The notes under the pieces are model-generated. The model was not told the origin of the DNA and made no database searches. It was given only the letters and a program-made list of their open reading frames with translations. Below, piece after piece: positions 359-12,934 of a DNA stretch of 64,000 nt (its first letter is position 1; each line of letters starts with the position of its first letter). A program made the translations under genes and the position numbers. The stretch lies in contig JAPLOA010000087.1 of NCBI GenBank assembly GCA_026400835.1, forward strand, positions 1 through 64,000, written 5' to 3'. Source of the DNA: Planctomycetales bacterium (GTDB taxonomy: Bacteria > Planctomycetota > Planctomycetia > Planctomycetales > Planctomycetaceae).

Positions 359-1033
359 TCAGACAAGCTTTGGAGGAGGGAGCGGAGGTCGCCTCGATGT
401 CAGATTGACTCGCTCTGAAACAGAGTGCACGAACTCAGTCATTTCGACGGAGATTATGACGGGCATAACGTGAGCCGGAATGATCGAGGCCGGAAAGCAC
501 AGCGAGAAAGCCGGCTGTCCCTGACACTCGGCGGAGTAAACCGAATGGACCCACTTCGATGTTCCGGACCGGGCCGCATTCACGCGAGACAGAGGTACAG
601 AAGAATTTGACGTTGGGACCGCAGACGCTGAAGACAGACGTTTGCCAGTTTTGGAAGTGACGTTCGTTTTGCACTTTTGCTCAGTGTGCCTGGCGTCATC
701 CTTTGAGCACAGCGCACAGGGCTTCTTCTTGGTGACTGTTTCTTTTTTTGCCGCCGCCAGAACATAGTCCGGCAGTTCGACACCATTCGCTTTCGCCCAG
801 GCAATCTTTTGAGAATTCGTGAAGCAGCAACACTTCTTCCAGCACTGTTCTGCTGAGCGACATCCGCACGGACGGTTTCGGCAGGGGAACGGCTGACTCG
901 TATCTTTCCCGCGATCGATCTGTGCGACAGTCGCGATAGGAAGTGGAAGCAGGATTGCGGCCAGACATAGCAGGGCCAACAGACTCATGAGTCTGCGGAA
1001 GGCCTTGCTGGAGATGTCTGGAATCCTCTTCAT
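359..1033 (-). CDS. Cys-rich exported protein of unknown function
   Basis: A 224-residue protein with an N-terminal basic stretch and hydrophobic segment (about residues 14-36, LMSLLALLCLAAILLPLPIA), so it is probably exported or membrane anchored. Just after it is a dense cysteine cluster at about residues 50-72 (CRNRPCGC, EQCWKKCCCF), followed by the segment KIAWAKANGVELPDYV. A second CALC and a single C occur near residues 106-121. The C-terminal half is low complexity and Pro/Arg rich at the end. Such Cys clusters can bind metal. The gene lies downstream of SCO1-like and multicopper oxidase genes on the same strand, which suggests, but does not show, a copper-related role. I do not recognise a named family. 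Start ATG at 1031-1033. Confidence 0.72.
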   Translation of the reverse strand: MKRIPDISSKAFRRLMSLLALLCLAAILLPLPIATVAQIDRGKDTSQPFPCRNRPCGCRSAEQCWKKCCCFTNSQKIAWAKANGVELPDYVLAAAKKETVTKKKPCALCSKDDARHTEQKCKTNVTSKTGKRLSSASAVPTSNSSVPLSRVNAARSGTSKWVHSVYSAECQGQPAFSLCFPASIIPAHVMPVIISVEMTEFVHSVSERVNLTSRRPPLPPPKLV

Positions 1034-1151
1034 TATCGATGTGACAGCGAAAAAACGAAAATCAATAAACGACCAGTTTGGCGGTTAAGCAAAGCTGAGT
1101 TGCGGCCCGGGAGTGATCAATTTCGGGCCACGCCTTCCGCCGATTCCGTCG

Positions 1152-2852
1152 TTATTCCGGTTCTGCTTTGACTTTCGGGACGTGGATCACGGTTTGAAAT
1201 CGCATGTTCATGGAATAACTCAGCTCGTCGCCCTTTGCCGTTCCTTTTGCCGCTGCCGTCCCGGAAATTTTATCGTCCCTGGTTATTGTAGCCGCGGTGA
1301 TGTGTGGTCCAGCATCATTTACGGTTTTCCCATCCACCACGATATGAACGCTTTCGACAGTTCCATCATCACGCAGACGAATGCGAATCTGATCCATAAA
1401 CGGAGCGAACGTATAGTCATCACCGTAGCGAGATAATGCTGTTTCCAGGTCGCTGAGTCGTACGGGTTCCGAGGTGATCAGAATGGTTACCGGATCAGTT
1501 ACCCTGCCTTGTGTGCGATAGGCAAAAGCGTGTTTCAGTTCGACGGACTGCTCATGCAGCGTGACATTACTGTTCGCCATTCCATTACTCATCGGAGTCG
1601 CTGGTTCTGACACCGTGGATGGCCGCTGTACTGTTTCTGTTCCCACCAGAGTACAGTTGGGCAGTTCGTCCCGAAGTTTCCGGATGCCTTCGGGGCTGAA
1701 TCGCGTGCCGGGAATTCCCAGCGTTATCAGGCTTTGTCGAGCGATGAGAATCTCAAGGGAAGCATCTGAGATTTCCGCGCCTTCGTCCCGACCGACATAC
1801 AGAACTTCCAGCTCCGGCAGTTCGGGCAGACGTCGAAGACCTTCATCTGAGATCAGTGTGCCGTAAAGATACAGTTTTGTCAGTGATGTCAGCTGCGTCA
1901 GAGATTCTATCGATTGATCTGTCACCGGCACGAACGCCAGATCCAGCTCAGACAATTGAGTCAGCCCGGCGATATGCTCGAGGGCTTTGTCGGTGAGTTG
2001 CTGATTGTATTCGAGCTTGAGGATTCGGAGAGAATCTAACTGGGACAGATGCTCCAGGGCCGCATCGTCAACGTTTGTCTTTCGAAGATCCAATGATTCC
2101 AGCTGGCTCAGTTTTGTCAGGAACGTCAGCTGCTGAGATGCGTCTGAAAACTCAAAGTCGGTCAATGTCAGAGACTTCAGCCCGGGCACTTGCCCCAGCA
2201 GATCACTCAGCTCATCCGACCATGCTGACGCGCTGTTCTTTTGAAGGCCATGAAGACTCAGGCCTGTCACTTCACCAGTCGATGACTCATCAACAACGGC
2301 CTTAAATTTTCCTCGCAGCGTCTTTACCAGGCCTTCGCCGCTGCTCTGGCCATCACTCATCTTTGGTCCGGAGTCTGGCAGGTGGTAAGTGCCTGCGTAA
2401 TCTGAAGAATTCTTCTTCTCGACGATTCGGACGGCGGAGGCGTCGAACATGATTTCGTCGCCATTAAAGAGATCCGTCTCTTTTCCATCCATAACACCGG
2501 AGACGACTCGCCATCGTCCCAGCAGACTGTCTGGCACATCTGTCTGGCCAGCCATCGGAATCAGCGTCAGAAGTCGATCCCCACTGTTGGTAGTCGACTC
2601 CATGGTTTCCGGGCGATCTTTGCCGGGCATTGGCAACAGTAGTCTCAGTTCTTTTCCCGTGCGTTGATACTGTCCGCGAATCAGGGCCGAGCCACTGAAC
2701 TTCAGATTCAGGAATCGAACTTCCGGAGCCTCGGCAACGACTGCAGATTCCGATTCCTGAACAGCTGCAAGTGGCGAAGGCTGGCCGAGAAACAGACAGA
2801 GTAAAAAGAGACCGAAGACATTTCGTCTGTTTAATATTAATGAAATCAACAT
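1152..2852 (-). CDS. Exported leucine-rich repeat protein with TIGR03067-like segment
   Basis: A protein of about 566 residues. A TTG codon precedes it, but the ATG at 2850-2852 has a GGAG ribosome binding site at good distance and is preferred. The N terminus is a signal peptide (FGLFLLCLFLGQPSPLAAVQ). At about residues 110-190 is a segment beginning LLGRWRVVSGVMDGKE that resembles the planctomycete TIGR03067 domain. Residues about 215-410 hold roughly seven leucine-rich repeats of the LxxLxLxxT type, for example LESLDLRKTNVDDAALEHL and LTKLYLYGTLISDEGL. The C-terminal 140 residues are another unnamed domain containing the repeated-looking GTAAAKGTAKG. LRRs usually mediate protein contacts. 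The gene follows the SCO1 fusion gene by only 56 bp, so the two are probably co-transcribed. Confidence 0.85.
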   Translation of the reverse strand: MLISLILNRRNVFGLFLLCLFLGQPSPLAAVQESESAVVAEAPEVRFLNLKFSGSALIRGQYQRTGKELRLLLPMPGKDRPETMESTTNSGDRLLTLIPMAGQTDVPDSLLGRWRVVSGVMDGKETDLFNGDEIMFDASAVRIVEKKNSSDYAGTYHLPDSGPKMSDGQSSGEGLVKTLRGKFKAVVDESSTGEVTGLSLHGLQKNSASAWSDELSDLLGQVPGLKSLTLTDFEFSDASQQLTFLTKLSQLESLDLRKTNVDDAALEHLSQLDSLRILKLEYNQQLTDKALEHIAGLTQLSELDLAFVPVTDQSIESLTQLTSLTKLYLYGTLISDEGLRRLPELPELEVLYVGRDEGAEISDASLEILIARQSLITLGIPGTRFSPEGIRKLRDELPNCTLVGTETVQRPSTVSEPATPMSNGMANSNVTLHEQSVELKHAFAYRTQGRVTDPVTILITSEPVRLSDLETALSRYGDDYTFAPFMDQIRIRLRDDGTVESVHIVVDGKTVNDAGPHITAATITRDDKISGTAAAKGTAKGDELSYSMNMRFQTVIHVPKVKAEPE

Positions 2853-2908
2853 CAACTATCTCCGACGTTTCAACACTGCAGCAGATCTAAGATGTACGGA
2901 AGAAAAAC

Positions 2909-5482
2909 TTACTGGACCGAAGTCGAATTTCCCGACGCGGTATCCATTTCCACTTCTGTTTCGCTGTCGGGCAATTCGATCTGGACAGCAACCACGGAAG
3001 CTTCGACGGGCTGGAAATGAGTTGCGGCATGCCCTCTGCGGAAAAAATGGCTATAGCCGCGAACAGTGATCGAATTCCCTTTCAGACCTTTTAGCACACG
3101 AAGCAGACTGTCTTTCGCGAGTGGACGACCGACGTCTGTCGTCACGTTCAGGCCAATTCGTTGATCCTCCTGAATTCGGACAACCGCACCTCCAATGATG
3201 GCCGTCTTGCCTTCTTCATCCACGGAGTCAACTCGCCCCGTCAGCAAACATTCTTCGGCGTTGATGATGCAGAGTGTGGCAACCGGAGGAGTCGAATTCG
3301 AGCTCTCTATTGCGTCTGCCTGCTCGGCTGACTGTGCAACGGACGAAGTTTCCGGCTCGCGAAAATCCAATCGGATCGGGAAGCCGGAATTGTAGTCGGA
3401 CGGCAGAAACGAACGTTGGCTGATGTCCGAGCCTGGCGTTTCAGTGCCGGCGAGAAGAGCTCGGAACGATGCCTCAACGTTCAGAGGAAACACCAGAGTA
3501 TCACTGGCGATCTGGGCGGAGATTCCGTTGACGCTGATCAATCCGGTCTGAGACTGAATCGACTGGAGTGGACCATACACCAGGCTCATACCTTGTACCG
3601 GCAGTTCTGCCATCACCGCGGGCTTGACCACCGTGCGTGGTGATCCAATGGCCATAGAGCCGGCACCACATTTGACTTTCACAAATGCGGGCATTGATTC
3701 CACACCGGTCAGCTGCGCCACAAATGTGCCGGACTTTCCATCGGCTGCGGGTACAACCTTACCAAAGCCAAGGTTCCGATCGGTAATTGCATCAAAGACC
3801 TGCACTTCGAAATTCAGGCATTCTGCTGCCGTCGTACCAAAAACGCGAAGCACGCCGTGGTGGTGATCTCCGGCCGCGGCATGGACCTGCACGATGCCAG
3901 TCTCATGAGTCATCGGTCGAAAGCGATCAATCTGCAGCAGAGTTGCAAAGAAGACGTCATCCACGAAATAACCTCGGGCCGTCGCAGCCAGGCCCGGACA
4001 CGATGGCATTTCCTCCATCGGAATTTCATTCCCGACGGCGTCCAGAATCTGCATCGGGAAACGCAGGTCCGGGTTCTCGACGATGGAAACATTGTTGATT
4101 CGCAGTTGACCAGAAGAGTCGACCGCAAGCTTGCCACCGATCAGATGATCGGCCAGATCGACTCGGAGATTATCCGCGACTCTTTCACCGTCCGCTGTGT
4201 AGCCACCAGCGCTTGTGACTATTGCCGAAGTCTGCTTCGGATAGGGCATCAGAACTCGCTGCCCCTGATGCATTGTCGAGTCAGTCAGTTCCTTCAGAGT
4301 CCTTCCGACGACCCCGGTGGTGCCTTCTACGTTCAAGGCATTGGGCACCCGCATCGTGGCTCCCACGGCCGACAACTGCTGGACCCATGGCCGAACTTCC
4401 AGGATCGGTCCTCGAATTCTCCACCGTTCATCGGAGGCAATGGCGCCGGTTTCATAAAGCGGGTCCATAAAGCGGTTGCCGGCAAACTTAAGAATCGCCA
4501 CCTTCAGAGTTTTGGGCGGCAGTGTCGAGGCAATCGCCGACCAGCGGCTCGTACGGTCATTGCCAAATGTCATGATCCCTGCGTGCTGGGAGCGGTCAGA
4601 ATCCAAAACCGGGTCGAGATCGTAAACGCCCATTTCACGGCGAAGCAGATTGATCTCATCCCGGTCTCCGCAAAGAAAGTCCCACTGTGGGAGAGATTTC
4701 TCCTCTTCCGGATCTCCCGATTTGTAGTTCGCTGCGAAGGCCTTCAGGACTTCGGGCTTGTCGAAATCAGCGTCCAGTGAAATCGAAAGAAAGCGAACGT
4801 CCCTGCCAAGCGTACCAGCCAGGAGCTTGCGGAGCTCAACAATCCCTTCGTTCGTTGGCGCACAGATTCCTGAGCAGCGAGTGTAGAAAAATGTGATGAT
4901 GACAATCTGATCTTTCACCAGGTCATCGTAGAAGCGAACTCGAGAACCGTTTTCTGTTTTGAGTTCAATATTGGTGAATCGGTCGCTGAAGCGTCCGGTG
5001 TCTCTGTGATTCTTCTTTGGCCCGGAAACGCCAGGGATCTTCGGCTGATCAACGTAACGGGAATCGTCGAGAACCCATTCTGATGATCCGATGACGTACG
5101 GCCGACCTGGATAGGCAAACCGATTCTCAGGATCCACGGCATAGACTCTCGCCTTGATTTCTTCGGGCGTGAGCTTTGTCATGCGGCTTTCGCCCGCAGG
5201 AACCGCATCCTCTGCGGTGTCTGTTGCGGAATTCTTTGATTCCGCCGCAATCGTCGCCGCAGTCGAGGCCCCGGCGGAAAGAGTCAGGGCACAGACTTCA
5301 CTGGGGTTCAGAGGTTGCCCCGTGATGGGACAAATCACCGGAGGGTTTGTCGCTGCGGCCTGCTGTGGCCCGCCTGTTGATTTCAACGCTGTTGTCGATG
5401 TGTGTGACGTCAGATGCGTTGAGATCAGGTAGATGGAGTGACATGACATCAGCACCATGGCAAGGATTGCCAGTCGCTTCAT
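2909..5482 (-). CDS. SCO1/SenC copper chaperone domain fused to a large C-terminal region
   Basis: An 857-residue protein. The start is taken at MKRLAILAMV (ATG at 5480-5482), which gives a signal peptide or anchor; a longer frame exists upstream but lacks a signal. Residues about 175-320 form a SCO1/SenC thioredoxin-fold domain: FFYTRCSGICAPTNEG carries the CxxxC copper pair (Cys 203 and 207), and SQHAGIM supplies the conserved His (about 300). SCO proteins deliver copper to oxidases, classically the CuA site of cytochrome oxidase. Unusually, about 530 further residues follow the SCO domain; these contain a GDHHHGVL motif and beta-rich sequence I do not recognise. An N-terminal VICPITGQPLN motif precedes the SCO domain. 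The typical SCO length is near 200 residues. It sits between the multicopper oxidase and the LRR gene. Partner and target are inferred only. Confidence 0.88.
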   Translation of the reverse strand: MKRLAILAMVLMSCHSIYLISTHLTSHTSTTALKSTGGPQQAAATNPPVICPITGQPLNPSEVCALTLSAGASTAATIAAESKNSATDTAEDAVPAGESRMTKLTPEEIKARVYAVDPENRFAYPGRPYVIGSSEWVLDDSRYVDQPKIPGVSGPKKNHRDTGRFSDRFTNIELKTENGSRVRFYDDLVKDQIVIITFFYTRCSGICAPTNEGIVELRKLLAGTLGRDVRFLSISLDADFDKPEVLKAFAANYKSGDPEEEKSLPQWDFLCGDRDEINLLRREMGVYDLDPVLDSDRSQHAGIMTFGNDRTSRWSAIASTLPPKTLKVAILKFAGNRFMDPLYETGAIASDERWRIRGPILEVRPWVQQLSAVGATMRVPNALNVEGTTGVVGRTLKELTDSTMHQGQRVLMPYPKQTSAIVTSAGGYTADGERVADNLRVDLADHLIGGKLAVDSSGQLRINNVSIVENPDLRFPMQILDAVGNEIPMEEMPSCPGLAATARGYFVDDVFFATLLQIDRFRPMTHETGIVQVHAAAGDHHHGVLRVFGTTAAECLNFEVQVFDAITDRNLGFGKVVPAADGKSGTFVAQLTGVESMPAFVKVKCGAGSMAIGSPRTVVKPAVMAELPVQGMSLVYGPLQSIQSQTGLISVNGISAQIASDTLVFPLNVEASFRALLAGTETPGSDISQRSFLPSDYNSGFPIRLDFREPETSSVAQSAEQADAIESSNSTPPVATLCIINAEECLLTGRVDSVDEEGKTAIIGGAVVRIQEDQRIGLNVTTDVGRPLAKDSLLRVLKGLKGNSITVRGYSHFFRRGHAATHFQPVEASVVAVQIELPDSETEVEMDTASGNSTSVQ

Positions 5483-5744
5483 TGTAATTACTCGCCCAGA
5501 ATTCCTTGGTTGCCTGATCGCCAAAACGTGCAATCAAACATACGTGAAGATCGATTAGCCGTCATACATTCCTGGTCCTGAGGGCTGTTTTAGGGGGCCT
5601 CGCGGGAGGTTTCCGGAGGAGGACTTCCCCGCCAGAGCGGTGACGACGGAATGCGGGCAGAAGAAGATCAAGGTCCCGATCCCGGCAATTATGTTGGGAA
5701 AAGAGCCTTTTCTCGCCGTGTCACGAATGCCTCACTCCGGGGGT

Positions 5745-5782
5745 AAACAAAAAACCTGGCAGAGGGTTTCTCTGCCAGGTTT
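5745..5782 (-). terminator. Rho-independent terminator of the multicopper oxidase gene
   Basis: A perfect 13-bp stem (5752-5764 with 5770-5782) and a 5-base loop lie 43 bp beyond the stop codon of the oxidase gene. On the minus strand the stem is followed by TTTTTTGTTT. This separates the oxidase transcript from the downstream SCO1 fusion gene. Confidence 0.85.
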
Positions 5783-5824
5783 CAGGCTTAGGCCAAAGGC
5801 CTGCATTCATCATGCAGCCAATGA

Positions 5825-8800
5825 CTATGGGAACAGATTCTGAGTCTGCTGCGGAGCTTCCGTCGGCAGAAGTCTTGGGTCCATGTTGAACATCATTCGC
5901 ATGTCTTCGTGTTCCAGGTTATGACAGTGGAACACAAAGCCGCCGATCCAGGTTCTGAACTTCATGAACATTTCGACTTCATCACCTGACCCGAGTACGG
6001 TTGTATCCTGCTTAAACTGATCCTGCAGGGCTGGTGCCTGGCCATTAATCTTCTGCCACTGATGAGCTTCCAGGTGAATGTGGACCGGATGCCACCAGCC
6101 ACCACCGTTGTTCCGCAGAATCCAGCGTTCGGCACTGCCGACGGTTGGAGTCACATTACCAACGTTGGTGTCATAGAACACGTCGTTGATTTTCCAGGCA
6201 CCCTGCTGGCGGTGGAAGGAAATCACGCGAGTCTTCACGACTTCTTCCGGCAGAATCTTGCGATGCGGTCGCAATTCCGTATCCATTGTGATCGCGAGGT
6301 CCGGTTTTCCACCATGGACAGGTTCGTCAGTAATGATGAACTTCATGATCTGCTCGCCAGCTTCACCGTCTTTTAGAACGGTTCCGTTACCGAGCAACTG
6401 GCTGATGTCAGACGTCCCTCGTGGTCCACGGCCGTCGATCTGGGGCAGGATGTTTTCCAGATAGACTTCACGAATTCCACGGTCTGCCAATTCCTTGAAG
6501 TCAACAATCACGTCCACGCGTTTTGCTGGCGACTGCAGCGTAAAGTCCTGAGTGATTGGCTTTGGGTAAAGCCATGAGTCGTAACCGATCTTCATGAATG
6601 GCTGGGCCATTCGATGATCCGCGGTTCGCAACTGCATTGCAAAAACGCGGGCATTACCATGAGTCAGGATGGAGAAGCGGTACTTACGTTTTTCAACGGT
6701 GTACTTTGGATTCGCGACACCATTAACCACCATGACGTCACCCATCTGGCCATCATGGCTCAGAGTGTCGTAGAACAGCGTGCCATCCGGATTGAAGACC
6801 TTATCTCCGATGCAAAGATGCACAAAGTACTTGTTGTAGTCGGTTTCAGGACCACCACGTTTTGCGGGATCAAAGTCCAGGGCCTGAGCGACTCCATTGG
6901 CGTCTTCACCGATCCGTGGGTAAATGGACGGCAGAATATTCTTCCGCATCAGCTCTTCGGCGATATGGTCAGTGGAAAAGTAAACTCCAGCCAGACCGGA
7001 GTAAGCCGCCGGGCCAGTTTCATCCATGCCATGGTCGTGATACCACTGCGTGTCAGAAGACTCTGAGTGATCAAACTCATCACCAGCAACACCACCAAGA
7101 GGACCCAGAACTCGCTGGATACGAGCCGGATTTCCGTCAGCTTCTGCCGGCCATCCACCCGGAGGATCATCACCCTGGGGTGCTGGACCTTCCTTGGAAA
7201 TGTAGATTGGAATGTTCAGAGCTGCAGCCGCGGTCATGTAGTCTTCGCCGGTCTGAGCCGTACGCTCCAGAATGTCCAGGTTTCGGTCACGAACTCGCGG
7301 AGAAATGTTCGGGTAGTAATAGTCTCGTGCACTGCCCGGAGTGATCGTGAAGTGAGGAGACCCGTCGGAATGCGAAGGCGAATGTCCGCCGTGCAGGTGG
7401 GTCGAACGATCGTGAGGCAGATTGTTGATGTTTCGGACAACAAATGGTTCATTCTCGCGTGCAAAGAAGGCGTCTCCTGGGACGTGACCGTTATAGCCCC
7501 ACAGCGGCGTCATGATGCCCACGCCCAAAACGTCTGACAGGACGGGTTTGATCGAGAGTTCATAGAAGTGAGTTGGATGCGAATCCCAGTCCGCTGGGTG
7601 CTGCCAATACTCAGGAGCGATCCCGTGCTTGACCTGACCAACACCAATTTGTCCCCATGCAGCTGGACTATAACCGCGACGCAGTTCTTCCGTGTTCAGT
7701 GGAGTCGCACTCACATCGACAGGGCGTGCGATGACCATCGGTGGGATTTCACGCACGAACTTTGGAAACTCGATGGCTGTTCCGCCGTTGCGAAGAGCCG
7801 GGTGCATAACCGCTGAGCCCGTAGCTGCGAATGGAATCGGGAAGTCTGCGACCTGACGACCAGCGGCTGGAGTGGCGGCACCTGTGGCACCAGCCCACAC
7901 ACCGTCAGTGTGTTGAGCGATGTGCTCGAAGTGACCGATGACCCACACAGCTCGGACAATTCTCTGAGCCGCATCTTCCTGCGTTCCTGTGATCGGAGGC
8001 GTGCGATCAGTCGCAACCGAAGGATTCAGCGGATTCGTCGGCAGCGTCAGAAAGTTGGAGAACTTACCACGAGTTGCACTCTCAACGGAACCAGCAATGT
8101 CGGCTCCCGCACCGCCGGTTGTTGTACCACCGCCGGTTGTTGGCCGCGAGCTGGCTGGCAATTGAGCGATCATCGCCTGAATATCGGCATTGCTGCCAGC
8201 GGGCTGACCATTGGCACCGAACAGAGTGGCAAGAACGTTATCACGCTCCTGTTTCTGCTGCGTTTCGAGATTCTTGCGATCGTTCTCATGGCGAGCGAGA
8301 GCGGTTTTGAATTCAGCCAGCACTTTGTCCCGCTGTTCCTGATCCAGCTCTGGAGCCTGGACTCGCTTTTGCAGGTCAACGATTTCTTCCTGATGCAGTT
8401 CCTGAAGATCTTTCCATTCCTTCAAATGAATCTTCTGAAGTTCAGCGGCGACCGCCTGCTTTTCTGCATTCGTTGCTGTCTGAACCGACGTTGGTGATGT
8501 TGTATTCCCGATTGGCGTATTCGTAGGCGTATTAGCCGGTGCCGTGGGCAGGTTGCCCATGACAGTTTCGGCGATCACGACCCCGGAACGCTTCAGCCGG
8601 AGGACTTTTCCAGCCAGTGATTTGGCTGTGGCGTCATCGAACTTCGCCGAAACGCGTGTCCCTGGACCACCGGTTCCTTCCACAACAAACGTGAACCCGG
8701 CTTTAAGTTCTTTTTCTTTTCCCTTGTCATCGACTGAAAAGACCGTCATCCCGGTGGTTCGTTTGTCATCGAAACCAAACGACGACGAAACAAAACATAC

Positions 8801-8848
8801 CAACAAAGCCCATGTCACAAGCTGCCGCAGCAACCTCCGACTCCACAT
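5825..8848 (-). CDS. Multicopper oxidase, CotA/bilirubin oxidase type, with long N-terminal extension
   Basis: A 1007-residue exported protein. The ATG at 8846-8848 is chosen because MWSRRLLRQLVTWALLVCFVSS is a clear signal peptide; the open frame continues about 66 codons upstream without one. Residues about 130-205 are Glu/Gln/Lys rich and probably coiled coil, followed by a Gly/Thr linker. All four copper motifs of laccase-type oxidases are present: HLHGGH (484), TQWYHDHG (about 601), HPVHIHLE (920) and HCHNLEHEDMRM (974). The last provides the type 1 copper Cys 975, His 980 and an axial Met 985, as in CotA and bilirubin oxidase. Expected chemistry is one-electron oxidation of a phenol or metal substrate with reduction of O2 to water outside the cytoplasm. 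The natural substrate cannot be read. At about twice the usual 500 residues, the N-terminal 400 residues are an oddity. Confidence 0.95.
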   Translation of the reverse strand: MWSRRLLRQLVTWALLVCFVSSSFGFDDKRTTGMTVFSVDDKGKEKELKAGFTFVVEGTGGPGTRVSAKFDDATAKSLAGKVLRLKRSGVVIAETVMGNLPTAPANTPTNTPIGNTTSPTSVQTATNAEKQAVAAELQKIHLKEWKDLQELHQEEIVDLQKRVQAPELDQEQRDKVLAEFKTALARHENDRKNLETQQKQERDNVLATLFGANGQPAGSNADIQAMIAQLPASSRPTTGGGTTTGGAGADIAGSVESATRGKFSNFLTLPTNPLNPSVATDRTPPITGTQEDAAQRIVRAVWVIGHFEHIAQHTDGVWAGATGAATPAAGRQVADFPIPFAATGSAVMHPALRNGGTAIEFPKFVREIPPMVIARPVDVSATPLNTEELRRGYSPAAWGQIGVGQVKHGIAPEYWQHPADWDSHPTHFYELSIKPVLSDVLGVGIMTPLWGYNGHVPGDAFFARENEPFVVRNINNLPHDRSTHLHGGHSPSHSDGSPHFTITPGSARDYYYPNISPRVRDRNLDILERTAQTGEDYMTAAAALNIPIYISKEGPAPQGDDPPGGWPAEADGNPARIQRVLGPLGGVAGDEFDHSESSDTQWYHDHGMDETGPAAYSGLAGVYFSTDHIAEELMRKNILPSIYPRIGEDANGVAQALDFDPAKRGGPETDYNKYFVHLCIGDKVFNPDGTLFYDTLSHDGQMGDVMVVNGVANPKYTVEKRKYRFSILTHGNARVFAMQLRTADHRMAQPFMKIGYDSWLYPKPITQDFTLQSPAKRVDVIVDFKELADRGIREVYLENILPQIDGRGPRGTSDISQLLGNGTVLKDGEAGEQIMKFIITDEPVHGGKPDLAITMDTELRPHRKILPEEVVKTRVISFHRQQGAWKINDVFYDTNVGNVTPTVGSAERWILRNNGGGWWHPVHIHLEAHQWQKINGQAPALQDQFKQDTTVLGSGDEVEMFMKFRTWIGGFVFHCHNLEHEDMRMMFNMDPRLLPTEAPQQTQNLFP

Positions 8849-10582
8849 CGTAGTTCGCACTGCTCTTCTCCAAATAACATCAATGAGTGAATTCGTGCTG
8901 CAGTCCAGTTCACAGGCACCGCAGAAATGTTGATCTGAATTTGTTGGTGCTTTCCCTCCGACATCCAGTCCGAGGAGACGGCACATACATTTCTTTTCTT
9001 CAGGATTGGCAGAGCCAACTCCCTGGGTCAGGCATGACTTGGGCATGCACGGTCATCAGGCCACGCACCTGACCTCCATGATGTGACAAGTCTCTGCCGA
9101 TCCACTCTCCGATTGATCGAAAGTTTTTTGTGCTCCGTGGGCACAACAGGACGGGCAGAACGGCTTCCGAAAAGCGTGATATGAAATCATTCAAGCGAAC
9201 AGGGAGTCAGAACAAATGATGCCTTCAACACAACTCAACTGACCCTATTGTGCCGTCCCATCGTTTTTATCCGCCAATAATTTCCTTTGAAGCCTCAATT
9301 CTTATGCCCGCTAACGCGACCGTCTGGACGAACTGAAACTTCTGGTCCTCTTGCGCCCTGGTCTCCCTATTTTGCTGCAGGGCTTTCCACTCACTGGATC
9401 GCGATTGCAAGATTCCGGAATGGAGACTTGCCAACAGCTGGACCCCGGCCGTGTATCCAGTCGCACCGATTATTCTGGATGAATTAGCGGTCGGTCGTTT
9501 GCCTGCTCCGCCCTGTTCGTCACCGAAGTCTTCAAAAACTGTCGCCAACCATCGCATTGCGATTTCGAGAGATCGCCATCCGGTGCAGCAAGTTCCTGCA
9601 GCTCGCTTCTTAACTTTTTCAGGGTCGTGCGGCAGGCTTAGAAAAGGCTACGCGATGTCGTCTCTGCGAACGCAATCACGAGAGGGTTGGGACAGAGTTT
9701 TGACAAGCAGTCTCTAACTCCCCAATGAACGGTATTACCGGGCCTGAAGGCAACAGGGCGTCTGAATCTGCATGAATCAAACTCTGACAATCTTTTAAGA
9801 GAAATCGGGCAGGCCATCACAACCATGCAATCGCCTGCCCAACTCTCTCTGAAACGATGTTATGGAAGGGGATTCCACGCCATCAGTCCGCACGTTAAAA
9901 ACATTTCTCGAAACGTCGAGGAACATTTCATTGCTGACGTCAGGGGTCTCAAGGGTAGAATTTTCCTGGCGGACCAAACGCACCATTTTTCCCTAAGGGT
10001 TGTTTCCAGAATACTCGTTTTACTCAGGGGTATGTCAACGCATGTTCAATAGTTGAAGTTTCTGTTCCGGGTGGCAATGTTCACCACAAAAATCAAGGAC
10101 TGCGCGAAATGAATTACGCGTTGCCATGTGTGCAGAAACTAAGTTGGTGTTGATCGACGTCGATAATGTTGCGTTGAGCCTGACAGGCTCACGCACATCA
10201 GCCAGAGGCATGAGAATGCACAAACGTTAATCAACGCCCCGCCGGGTTATACTCTGAGTGGCCTTTGTGGAGAGTCGCACCGAGTTTTCACGAATCCGGC
10301 GACAAAGAAACAATACGATCTCGACGCGCGAAGAGGCAACCTGACAGGCTGTTGATTCAATGGTCTTTCACAACCCGAAGCGTCAGTTTTGAAGTTGCGC
10401 ATTTCAGACCTTCGGTTGATCAAGCTTCCAAAAACAGAGGGATTTATCCCCGGGTTGACTTGCCAGGGCCGGGTTGAGACGAATCGCGAAAGTCTCAGCG
10501 TGGACCTGCCGATCGATGCAAATTACGCCCACGTTTCAGGATGGATTGGCGTCGGGCAGAGCTGATTGAAAGGCTTCCTGCA
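8849..10582. other. Gene-poor region of about 1.7 kb
   Basis: Only short frames without family resemblance or ribosome binding sites are seen here. The part next to 8848 should hold the oxidase promoter. A possible hairpin with an 8-bp stem lies at 9807-9840 (GGGCAGGC with GCCTGCCC). An 80-bp dispersed repeat lies at 10371-10450. The region could be remnants of mobile DNA, but no transposase is recognisable. Confidence 0.5.
10371..10450 (-). repeat. 80-bp dispersed repeat, copy 1 (inverted relative to 38667-38746)
   Basis: The reverse complement of this stretch is identical over 80 bases to 38667-38746. It includes the palindromic-repeat core CTGACGCTTCGGGTTG at one end and a GGGATAAATCCCTCTG segment at the other. 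Identity over this length between two intergenic sites 28 kb apart indicates a recent or conserved dispersed element rather than chance. Confidence 0.93.
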
Positions 10583-11716
10583 TTATTTCGGTTTGCTCTC
10601 GTGCTTCTTCAGCAGATCCAGAACCAACTGCTGGCGCGATGATGGCTTTTTTTCCAGATCACTACGAAGTGACTGACTCAACTCCGGCGACGGCGGAGTC
10701 CCTTCCACAGCCGTATAGACTTCATTGACGAATCTTTCAGGGTTGTCATTTTGCTGATCATAGAACTCACTGCTGCTCAGCAAGCTGGCCTGAACTTTCT
10801 GCAAAGATCCACCACTCTTCAGGTCTGATTCCCAGGCGGAAATTTCCCGAGGCGATGCAGCACGTCCGAGGTACTGCTGATACCACTGCCCGATCTGCGC
10901 TGATGGAGATAAGTTATTGCCGGTTGGACGAATACCTGTTGAGATGAGCTTGAGATTGCTGCGTGTACTGTTCGTGTTCAGGTTGACCTTCGAAGCCGGA
11001 ATCGTTTGCATCAGGATCAGACCACGTTCAACAACTTTGGCCTCCATCGCATACTGATGACCGGATTTCAGAAGACCGGGATCAAAATCCATTCGGTAAG
11101 CTAAAGGCCATCGGCCCTGAGCCGAGAAGCTGACTTCGGCAATCGCGTTTGTTGCCCATTGCGGTCGCGTGACATCGATAAGTCGCACCGTCACAACAGC
11201 ATTAGGGCCGGGATTGACACGGTCGGAGGTTGCGATTTCGCCGCTGATGGTCCATAGGGAGGAAGTAAACTGGACCGGCACGTTGATCAGCTTCCCGTCT
11301 CGACTATTGCGAACCAGCAGAGAGACTCGACCACGTGAGTCCACACGTTTGGCCAGTTCATCGCCAATATCGTAAAGTCGACCACCGACGAGGCCCACTT
11401 GATATCCTGCAACATTGACAATGACATCGTTGGGTTCAAGTCCCGATCGTTGCGCAACGGAGCCGGCTGCAACCTGTAAGATTTGTACTCCCGTATCTGT
11501 ATTGCGCGGCGTGATCCCGAGTTTGTACGTGCCGGACGGCTGACCTCCGGGAGGCAAATAGCGAGACTGGGCTTCTGTACCGACGGGAGTTGACTGAGCG
11601 GGACCGCTATCGCGGTCTCGCGATTCCTGAGCCGCAGTCGGTTCCTCTCCGGCCAGGCACGCCAACAACACAGTCAGTCTCAGTACGTTCGAAAGAACAA
11701 AAGATATGCGGGGCAT
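10583..11716 (-). CDS. Exported PDZ protein with YbaY/YscW-like and DUF4214-like domains
   Basis: A 377-residue protein. The start is taken at MPRISFVLSN, which places a signal peptide (LRLTVLLACLAG) at the N terminus; a GTG 20 codons upstream is possible and would overlap the preceding gene. Three segments follow. A PDZ domain (about 65-140) includes GVQILQVAAGSVAQRSGLEPNDVIVNV, split by the usual GLEPNDVI turn. A beta-sandwich resembling the YbaY/YscW lipoprotein family (about 157-245) has PNAVVTVRLIDVTR and the closing RGLILMQT. A helical segment (about 273-335, IGQWYQQYLGRAASPREISAW) resembles DUF4214. PDZ and YbaY-like folds suggest a periplasmic scaffolding or binding role. It follows a PstS-like binding protein gene by about 46 bp, so the two are probably one operon. 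Confidence 0.8.
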   Translation of the reverse strand: MPRISFVLSNVLRLTVLLACLAGEEPTAAQESRDRDSGPAQSTPVGTEAQSRYLPPGGQPSGTYKLGITPRNTDTGVQILQVAAGSVAQRSGLEPNDVIVNVAGYQVGLVGGRLYDIGDELAKRVDSRGRVSLLVRNSRDGKLINVPVQFTSSLWTISGEIATSDRVNPGPNAVVTVRLIDVTRPQWATNAIAEVSFSAQGRWPLAYRMDFDPGLLKSGHQYAMEAKVVERGLILMQTIPASKVNLNTNSTRSNLKLISTGIRPTGNNLSPSAQIGQWYQQYLGRAASPREISAWESDLKSGGSLQKVQASLLSSSEFYDQQNDNPERFVNEVYTAVEGTPPSPELSQSLRSDLEKKPSSRQQLVLDLLKKHESKPK

Positions 11717-11762
11717 GATTCTCACCGGCTCCCAGGAAGCGTGATCGCAAAAGACAGTCTTA

Positions 11763-12800
11763 CTAACGAACTTCACTCCAGCCCAATTTTTCTTCCTGGG
11801 CTACAACCTCGGCGCGCGTGAGTGGCAGAAAGCCGTCTTTAATGACATCTTCCTGCCCGGATCGACTCAAAACATAAGACAGTAGTTCCCGCATGAGTGG
11901 GTCTTCAAGTCTTTCTCCGTTGATTGCCACAACAAGATACAGTGGCCGAATCAATGGGTAGCGACGAGACTGAAGATTCGCTTCTGTTGGCGAAGTCAGA
12001 ACGCCATCGGCTCCGGCGACGGGCACAACGCGAGCATCCCCGGGCTCACCATGAGAGAGACTCACAAGAGAGATACTTGTGGGATCCTGAGCGACAGCCT
12101 GGATCAATTCATCTCGTGCGGAATATTCTTTGACAGCGCGTTGGCCGGCTTCGGCTCCCAGAAATGTGTTTTCCAGATAGCGACGGGTTCCGGAGGTCTT
12201 CTTTGGTGCCAGAACATTCACTGGCTGCGATCCGAGAGGCCCTGCGACGTTCAGCTCCGACCATATCGAAGCGACGCCTGTCGCCCCCGTTTTTGTCAGT
12301 ATTGCTGACTCCGCGGAGTCAGAAAATCCCTGCACTGGATTGGATTTGTGAACGATGATTCCCATGGCATCATGACAAATCACGAGCTCTGCAATTCGAC
12401 CTCCTCGTTTTTGTTCGAGATCTGCGAGTTCCTGACTCGTCAGTGCCCGACTCATCAACCCAATCAGAAGACGCTGATCCGGGATCGAAGGAAGAGCGGT
12501 TTCCGATCCCTGGCAGTCGATATTCAAAGTCACTTTCGGATGCAGCTCTCGAAAGCTGTCTGACCAGGTCGCCGCCACTTGTTGAAGTGTCTGTGATCCA
12601 AAAAGGAAAACATCCCCTTCAACTTCCTGTTGTGGTGTGTAGTAATCCAGATCCAGCATTGCTCCGGCTGATTCGACCGTTGAGATCGCAGGCAGGACCG
12701 GCGGCAGCTCAACGCCCTCGTCAGCATTGCATGGCGTCAGCAGCGAATGCAGGATCATCAGCCCGAATCCCCGGAAGCCACGAGTTGGATTCGAAAACAT
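11763..12800 (-). CDS. PstS-like periplasmic phosphate/anion-binding protein
   Basis: A 345-residue protein with the ATG at 12798-12800, preceded by GGGAG at ideal spacing. After a short N-terminal hydrophobic segment the sequence follows the PstS-like binding protein fold. GDVFLFGSQTLQQVAATW occupies the phosphate-binding GxGST position in altered form, followed by FRELHPKVTLNIDCQGSET, IGLMSRALTSQEL, and GIIVHKSNPVQGF. A later KKTSGTRRYLENTFLG segment matches the SGTR ligand-binding stretch. The altered glycine loop means that the ligand may be phosphate or another anion. No permease or ATPase genes (pstC, pstA, pstB) are adjacent, so it may work as a sensor-linked or stand-alone binding protein, together with the PDZ protein downstream. 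Confidence 0.82.
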   Translation of the reverse strand: MFSNPTRGFRGFGLMILHSLLTPCNADEGVELPPVLPAISTVESAGAMLDLDYYTPQQEVEGDVFLFGSQTLQQVAATWSDSFRELHPKVTLNIDCQGSETALPSIPDQRLLIGLMSRALTSQELADLEQKRGGRIAELVICHDAMGIIVHKSNPVQGFSDSAESAILTKTGATGVASIWSELNVAGPLGSQPVNVLAPKKTSGTRRYLENTFLGAEAGQRAVKEYSARDELIQAVAQDPTSISLVSLSHGEPGDARVVPVAGADGVLTSPTEANLQSRRYPLIRPLYLVVAINGERLEDPLMRELLSYVLSRSGQEDVIKDGFLPLTRAEVVAQEEKLGWSEVR

Positions 12801-12934
12801 AGACTGCTCCCTGATGAAGTTCTGAAAACAACAATCCACGAATCCCTGAATCGAATTCGGATTGAACAGACGCGTTGTTTTGGCGGAAATCAAACTCACG
12901 CCATTTTATCTATCACAGCACGATCGTCCAAAGG

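Follow-up and report, generated by a model that had tools for sequence, protein, structure and literature searches.

The window analysed here is a stretch of 64,000 nucleotides from a Planctomycetales bacterium (contig JAPLOA010000087.1). At positions 359-8848 it carries four consecutive open reading frames (ORFs), all on the minus strand, which encode a multicopper oxidase (MCO), a SCO1/SenC-domain fusion protein (SCO), an exported leucine-rich repeat (LRR) protein and a Cys-rich protein. A sequence-only reading had grouped these genes as a single block for copper handling, with the Cys-rich protein bringing copper to the oxidase. All four ORFs proved to be real, but their homologues are distributed differently. 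Together with the leader mechanism set out below, we consider it fairly probable that the genes form two adjacent units, an MCO-SCO pair and a separate unit headed by the Cys-rich gene. On balance, the comparative analysis leads us to favour, with limited confidence, the view that the Cys-rich family consists of planctomycete-wide metal-sensing arrest peptides without detectable relation to DUF2946. These would read extracytoplasmic metal through a Cys cluster and a Cys about 49 residues from a PPxPPPR motif, and would control operons of pseudopilin, PepSY_TM and N-terminal-His proteins.

The Cys-rich family and its place in genomes

No match for the Cys-rich protein was found in Pfam or NCBIfam, and a fold search of the PDB gave none either. 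Membership of DUF2946 (PF11162) could be ruled out, as none of 58 family members matched it, nor did anything in the window's own genome. When one genome was scanned for each species, 74 loci of the family were identified which, with the relatives from a first survey, make up 82 distinct ORFs. Wherever a phylum is recorded, it is Planctomycetes. The proteins have a signal or transmembrane helix at the N-terminus, and in the 58 aligned sequences C51, C56, C58, C64, C68, C69, C70 and C170 are invariant, while G172 and P219-P221 are nearly so. The dense Cys cluster that had been noticed in the window is thus conserved, all seven of its cysteines being invariant across homologues. AlphaFold2 models the Cys domain confidently (predicted local distance difference test, pLDDT, 90-97 for residues ~41-100), followed by a disordered linker.

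The C-terminus of the family is equally distinctive. PP is present in the last 20 residues of 81 of the 82 members versus 51 of 639 background ORFs from the same loci, and PPP in 71 of 82 versus 7 of 639. The polyproline follows the last invariant Cys at a distance of 46-51 residues in all 81 measurable members, with a mode of 49 (46 of 81). The distance from the Cys cluster to the polyproline varies widely, from about 110 to 210. These spacings were measured with the Cys nearest to 49 among those at 44-53 residues. Because this choice favoured 49, the distances of all Cys were plotted as a control; 72 Cys lie at distances 49-51, compared with 84 at the remaining 63 positions between 5 and 70. 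Among 35 non-redundant sequences with a spacing of 49, the spacer between Cys170 and the polyproline has a mean pairwise identity of 16%, which is nearly random, versus 94-100% for the PPP.

MCO or SCO genes were found near only two of the 74 Cys loci (L092 and L093), both orthologous to the window, and dozens of MCO-SCO pairs occur without a Cys gene. This neighbourhood survey, which had been named as the test of a copper carrier for the MCO, therefore went against that role. Instead, the polyproline, the fixed spacing and the position at the head of other operons point to a regulatory leader. The next gene is on the same strand at 69 of 78 Cys loci. At 50 of the 78 loci with room for it, a DUF1559 gene follows immediately on the same strand (25 of 605 in the background), with a median gap near 280 nt. 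Behind DUF1559 are genes for PepSY_TM, DUF4198 and AhpC-TSA/thioredoxin-like proteins, together with small lipoproteins and with exported proteins whose first mature residue is probably His. The upstream gene is divergent at 43 of 76 loci, and close and on the same strand at only 15.

Two further observations concern these loci. Downstream of the Cys gene at L082, L083, L119, L141, L143 and L153 are exported proteins of no known family whose mature N-terminus would be His (HGPQ, preceded by A), a candidate N-terminal-His metal site. Tandem Cys-leader genes were found at L118 (7491-8480 and 10789-11532) and L075 (3-725 and 4189-4778), with the usual operon genes between them.

A putative metal-sensing leader and its alternatives

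Considering the motifs, the fixed spacing over a variable sequence and the place ahead of an operon, we propose that the Cys-rich protein is exported during its translation, senses metal, most likely copper, and acts as the leader of its operon. The Cys cluster would emerge from the ribosome first. With PPxPPPK/R at the peptidyl-transferase centre, Cys170, some 49 residues nearer the N-terminus, would be located at the tunnel exit or slightly beyond it, and metal bound to the cluster and Cys170 could alter the polyproline pause. The altered pause would in turn set the expression of the genes behind, DUF1559 pseudopilin and then PepSY_TM and others, as in CruR and CutF. Stalling, the identity of the metal and the direction of regulation are the parts of this proposal that we infer. 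We favour copper because every candidate ligand is a Cys and because the PepSY_TM gene (CrpH) is copper-linked in Bordetella (PMC13038864), but other metals are possible.

Two described leaders resemble this layout. CruR of Bordetella, a DUF2946 protein, combines a CXXC motif with RAPP three residues before its end, at a spacing of 45 that is constant within one or two residues, and leads a TonB receptor/PepSY_TM operon with a long gap behind it (PMC9426467). Like CruR, the Cys-rich protein is an exported-type leader ORF with a Cys motif, a near-terminal Pro motif and a conserved distance between them (49 versus 45 in CruR), and it stands at the head of a PepSY_TM operon with a long gap before the next gene. 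It differs in lacking a DUF2946 match, in having a seven-Cys cluster and a single Cys rather than CXXC, and PPxPPPR rather than RAPP. The first downstream gene encodes a DUF1559 pseudopilin, as opposed to the TonB receptor behind CruR. CutF, from the cutFOG operon of R. capsulatus, is exported co-translationally, has a CxxxC motif and a Pro-rich end, and controls the MCO CutO (PMC9973294). Shared with CutF are the Sec signal, a Cys metal motif, the Pro-rich C-terminus and the position as leader of a metal operon (PMC8456105, PMC9973294). However, CutF has 118 residues and CxxxC, and is encoded directly upstream of its MCO gene, where a stem-loop covers the Shine-Dalgarno sequence, whereas the window MCO lies upstream in a separate unit and no stem-loop was found behind the Cys gene.

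Several results weigh against the leader proposal. The gap that separates DUF1559 from the Cys gene shows no unusual degree of structure (mean z -1.0 and -0.5), and no conserved stem-loop like that of CutF was found there. In the window and at L093, the Cys gene begins only ~120 nt after the LRR gene and may in part be transcribed together with SCO-LRR. For the last 50 residues of the protein the model has intermediate confidence (65-79), and this stretch could fold into a small domain. With regard to copper as the metal, DUF4198 proteins are linked to Ni/Co too. Since no family member matches DUF2946, the kinship to CruR and CutF is one of layout and not of homology, and the polyproline of CutF alone gave no detectable stalling (PMC9973294).

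An alternative that we consider rather unlikely is that the Cys-rich protein is an abundant periplasmic copper chaperone, metallothionein-like, whose PPxPPPR docks a partner such as the pseudopilin or the PepSY_TM protein. Seven invariant Cys in a small, confidently modelled domain, the signal or transmembrane helix and the company of PepSY_TM and N-terminal-His proteins would all suit such a chaperone. A docking motif, however, would not have to sit ~15 residues or fewer from the stop in almost every member, or to keep a fixed distance of 46-51 residues to a Cys across a nearly random spacer. CutF, too, was initially taken for a chaperone and later proved to be a leader (PMC8456105, PMC9973294). 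The single copper unit of four genes, with the Cys-rich protein carrying copper to both SCO and MCO, appears very improbable. The order SCO-LRR-Cys is kept in three related metagenome-assembled genomes (MAGs), the window's included, and copper is a theme throughout, but that order was found in only two related MAGs besides the window (L053/L092 and L093), and a terminator parts MCO from SCO in the window. The scarcity of SCO and MCO genes near the 74 Cys loci and the many pairs that lack a Cys gene also count against it, and the neighbourhood survey largely refutes it.

The multicopper oxidase and its probable SCO partner

Within the proposed division into two units, the first consists of an exported MCO followed by a dedicated SCO. 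The MCO matches Pfam Cu-oxidase_3 and Cu-oxidase_2, its best PDB match is bilirubin oxidase (E 1.7e-40), and its start is most likely at 8848 and not at 9046. All four ligand motifs are intact (HLHGGH, WYHDH, HPVHIH and HCHNLEHEDMRM), which completes the T1/T2/T3 set and bears out the copper sites described from the sequence. A literature search gave no evidence for a manganese-oxidase role of the window MCO. The SCO protein matches Pfam SCO1-SenC (PF02630; E 3.5e-8, 33.9 bits versus a cut-off of 22.8), with the thioredoxin fold at residues ~180-350 of 874, to which the confidence of the AlphaFold2 model is confined. The C-terminal ~500 residues include DUF5666-like modules, and a detached relative of this half, in L066, has a weak DUF5666 match. 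C220 and C224 of CSGIC and the distal H317 are invariant among Cys-coded homologues, so the predicted SCO1 copper site appears sound. At L217 (8152-8871), an MCO-linked SCO-like protein lacks the CxxxC cysteines (SRGETLYP).

The pairing of the two genes extends well beyond the window. In the first survey of 59 relatives, most MCOs of the window clade in the genus have a same-strand SCO gene next to them, and in L062 and L065 the MCO stop and the SCO start overlap. We then drew 392 genomes across the phylum, 30 of which contain the MCO clade at E <= 1e-60. In the regions L200-L218, from several families, SCO lies just downstream of MCO in 19 of 19, mostly within 500 nt. Counted with generic Pfam models in 19 of these planctomycete genomes, which had been picked on the MCO clade and not on SCO, a same-strand SCO lies less than 3.5 kb downstream of 29 of 41 MCO genes (0.05 expected by chance). 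A plasmid search also identified the pair in the alphaproteobacterium Skermanella; its other matches were remote MCOs. Because the pairing recurs in the majority of congeners and extends to several further planctomycete families and an alphaproteobacterium, the window SCO probably serves the window MCO, as far as gene order and sequence can tell. With adjacency and intact CxxxC/His and MCO ligands in place, SCO most likely hands Cu(I) to the MCO, or holds its copper site reduced, outside the cytoplasm; we infer the metallation.

This linkage supports the dedicated SCO of the sequence-only reading, but not its novelty, as the iox cluster of Iodidimonas and mtoX precede it. The Iodidimonas cluster combines the MCO IoxA with three SCO homologues (IoxB/D/F) and adjoins gsp genes (PMC9415286). 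Here too (Iodidimonas/Roseovarius) an MCO and dedicated SCO share one cluster, and gsp genes flank it, a setting shared with five congeners, whose MCO-SCO pair lies within a type II secretion-like gene cluster. The window differs in having a single SCO with a long C-terminal fusion instead of three SCO genes plus IoxC and IoxE of unknown function, and no gsp genes near its MCO. The likeness is one of gene arrangement, as IoxA was set beside the window MCO by description and not by sequence. In mtoX-SCO1/SenC-mauG (PMC5739008), SCO again adjoins a copper enzyme other than cytochrome oxidase, but this enzyme is an SBP56/methanethiol oxidase and not an MCO. The setting in the congeners suggests that the oxidase of such pairs is exported through the type II secretion-like machinery. 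MCO(-MCO)-SCO arrangements inside a type II secretion/type IV pilus-like cluster were seen at L058, L059, L060, L061 and L069, and also at L070 and L071.

Many MCO-linked SCO genes elsewhere probably encode selenocysteine proteins, judging by their codons and RNA signals. In 15 of 26 distant regions (L200-L208, L210, L211, L214-L216 and L218), a UGA stands in frame in the MCO-adjacent SCO gene, precisely where the second Cys of CxxxC would be encoded. Each of these genes carries a 6-bp hairpin, GAAYCT-[CG]GTNN-AGGTTC, 17 nt from the first UGA base, resembling a selenocysteine insertion sequence; among the Cys-coded SCO genes examined, not one has the hairpin. The main text of a 2026 review on selenoproteins in prokaryotes lists no SCO (PMC13188914). 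SelB is above cut-off in the genomes with these genes except the incomplete G388, and the selenocysteine tRNA is above the Rfam cut-off, in G206 only marginally. Neither was found in the window genome. The number of independent cases is below 15, because some loci are near-identical (L202/L203 and L204/L205).

These genes bear on another interpretation, namely that the MCO-linked SCO serves the MCO by thiol-disulphide reduction or redox sensing and not as a copper donor. SCO proteins are known in both roles, as copper donors and in thiol-disulphide or redox chemistry. The predicted thioredoxin fold is compatible with the latter, and the probable replacement of the second Cys by selenocysteine in relatives favours redox chemistry. 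The third ligand His is nevertheless invariant along with CxxxC, as in copper-binding SCO, and we regard a purely redox role as possible but not likely.

Genome context and implications

The features of the four genes and their surroundings are listed in Table 1. The strong terminator ascribed to the MCO was confirmed. Three stretches of the LRR protein pass Pfam LRR_4, and the LRR gene is linked to SCO and Cys genes only at the orthologous locus of the three MAGs. At L053/L092, which are the same locus, and at L093 the Cys gene is followed by a DUF1559 gene; the complete order at L093 is SCO-LRR-Cys-DUF1559-PepSY_TM-lipoprotein. The absence of cytochrome oxidase genes holds within the window, but the genome carries two COX1 genes (C67; C52:146887, beyond the window on the same contig), as well as a second SCO (C53) outside the window.

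Table 1. Features at the start of the window (positions on the forward strand).
Feature	Position	Strand	Basis or remark
MCO (bilirubin oxidase/PhsA/CueO class) with ~370-residue N-terminal extension and coiled-coil-like stretch	5825..8848	-	Pfam, PDB match
C-terminal T1/T3 ligand motif of MCO, HCHNLEHEDMRM	5894..5929	-	sequence
Intrinsic terminator (14-bp stem followed by T run) separating MCO from SCO	5751..5783	-	
SCO1/SenC-domain fusion	2909..5482	-	874-residue ORF opening at 5533
SCO copper-site CxxxC (CSGIC, both Cys codons)	4862..4876	-	alignment
Third SCO copper ligand, His317	4583..4585	-	invariant alignment column
Exported LRR protein	1152..2855	-	Pfam LRR matches
Cys-rich leader-like protein, 224 residues	359..1033	-	
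Invariant seven-Cys cluster, C51-x4-CGC-x5-C-x3-CCC70	824..883	-	alignment, AlphaFold2
Invariant Cys170 (CxG), 49 residues upstream of polyproline	524..526	-	alignment
Polyproline PPP (RRPPLPPPKLV-stop), C-terminus of Cys-rich protein	371..379	-	
DUF1559 pseudopilin gene, 5' part, downstream of Cys gene and cut by contig end	1..152	-	complete orthologue in L093

Upstream of the window MCO, genes for PBP-like and PDZ/YscW-domain proteins (10583-12899) also precede a different, smaller MCO-SCO pair in the congener L055 (G004:C307). As the same genes precede another pair there, this may be a site at which MCO-SCO pairs were exchanged. In other planctomycete families (L219 and L222-L225), very long MCO fusions of about 900-1700 residues stand in tandem with SCO genes.

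The MCO-SCO pair gives wide comparative support to SCO proteins serving oxidases besides cytochrome oxidase, and its UGA-coded relatives suggest selenocysteine at a copper-delivery site. If the leader proposal is true, a second protein family, from a different phylum, would have arrived at a nascent leader that senses exported metal, and with nearly the same ruler length. The model of a Cys at the tunnel exit would then become directly testable, and these leaders would offer a handle on the role of the abundant, unexplained DUF1559 pseudopilins encoded beside them.

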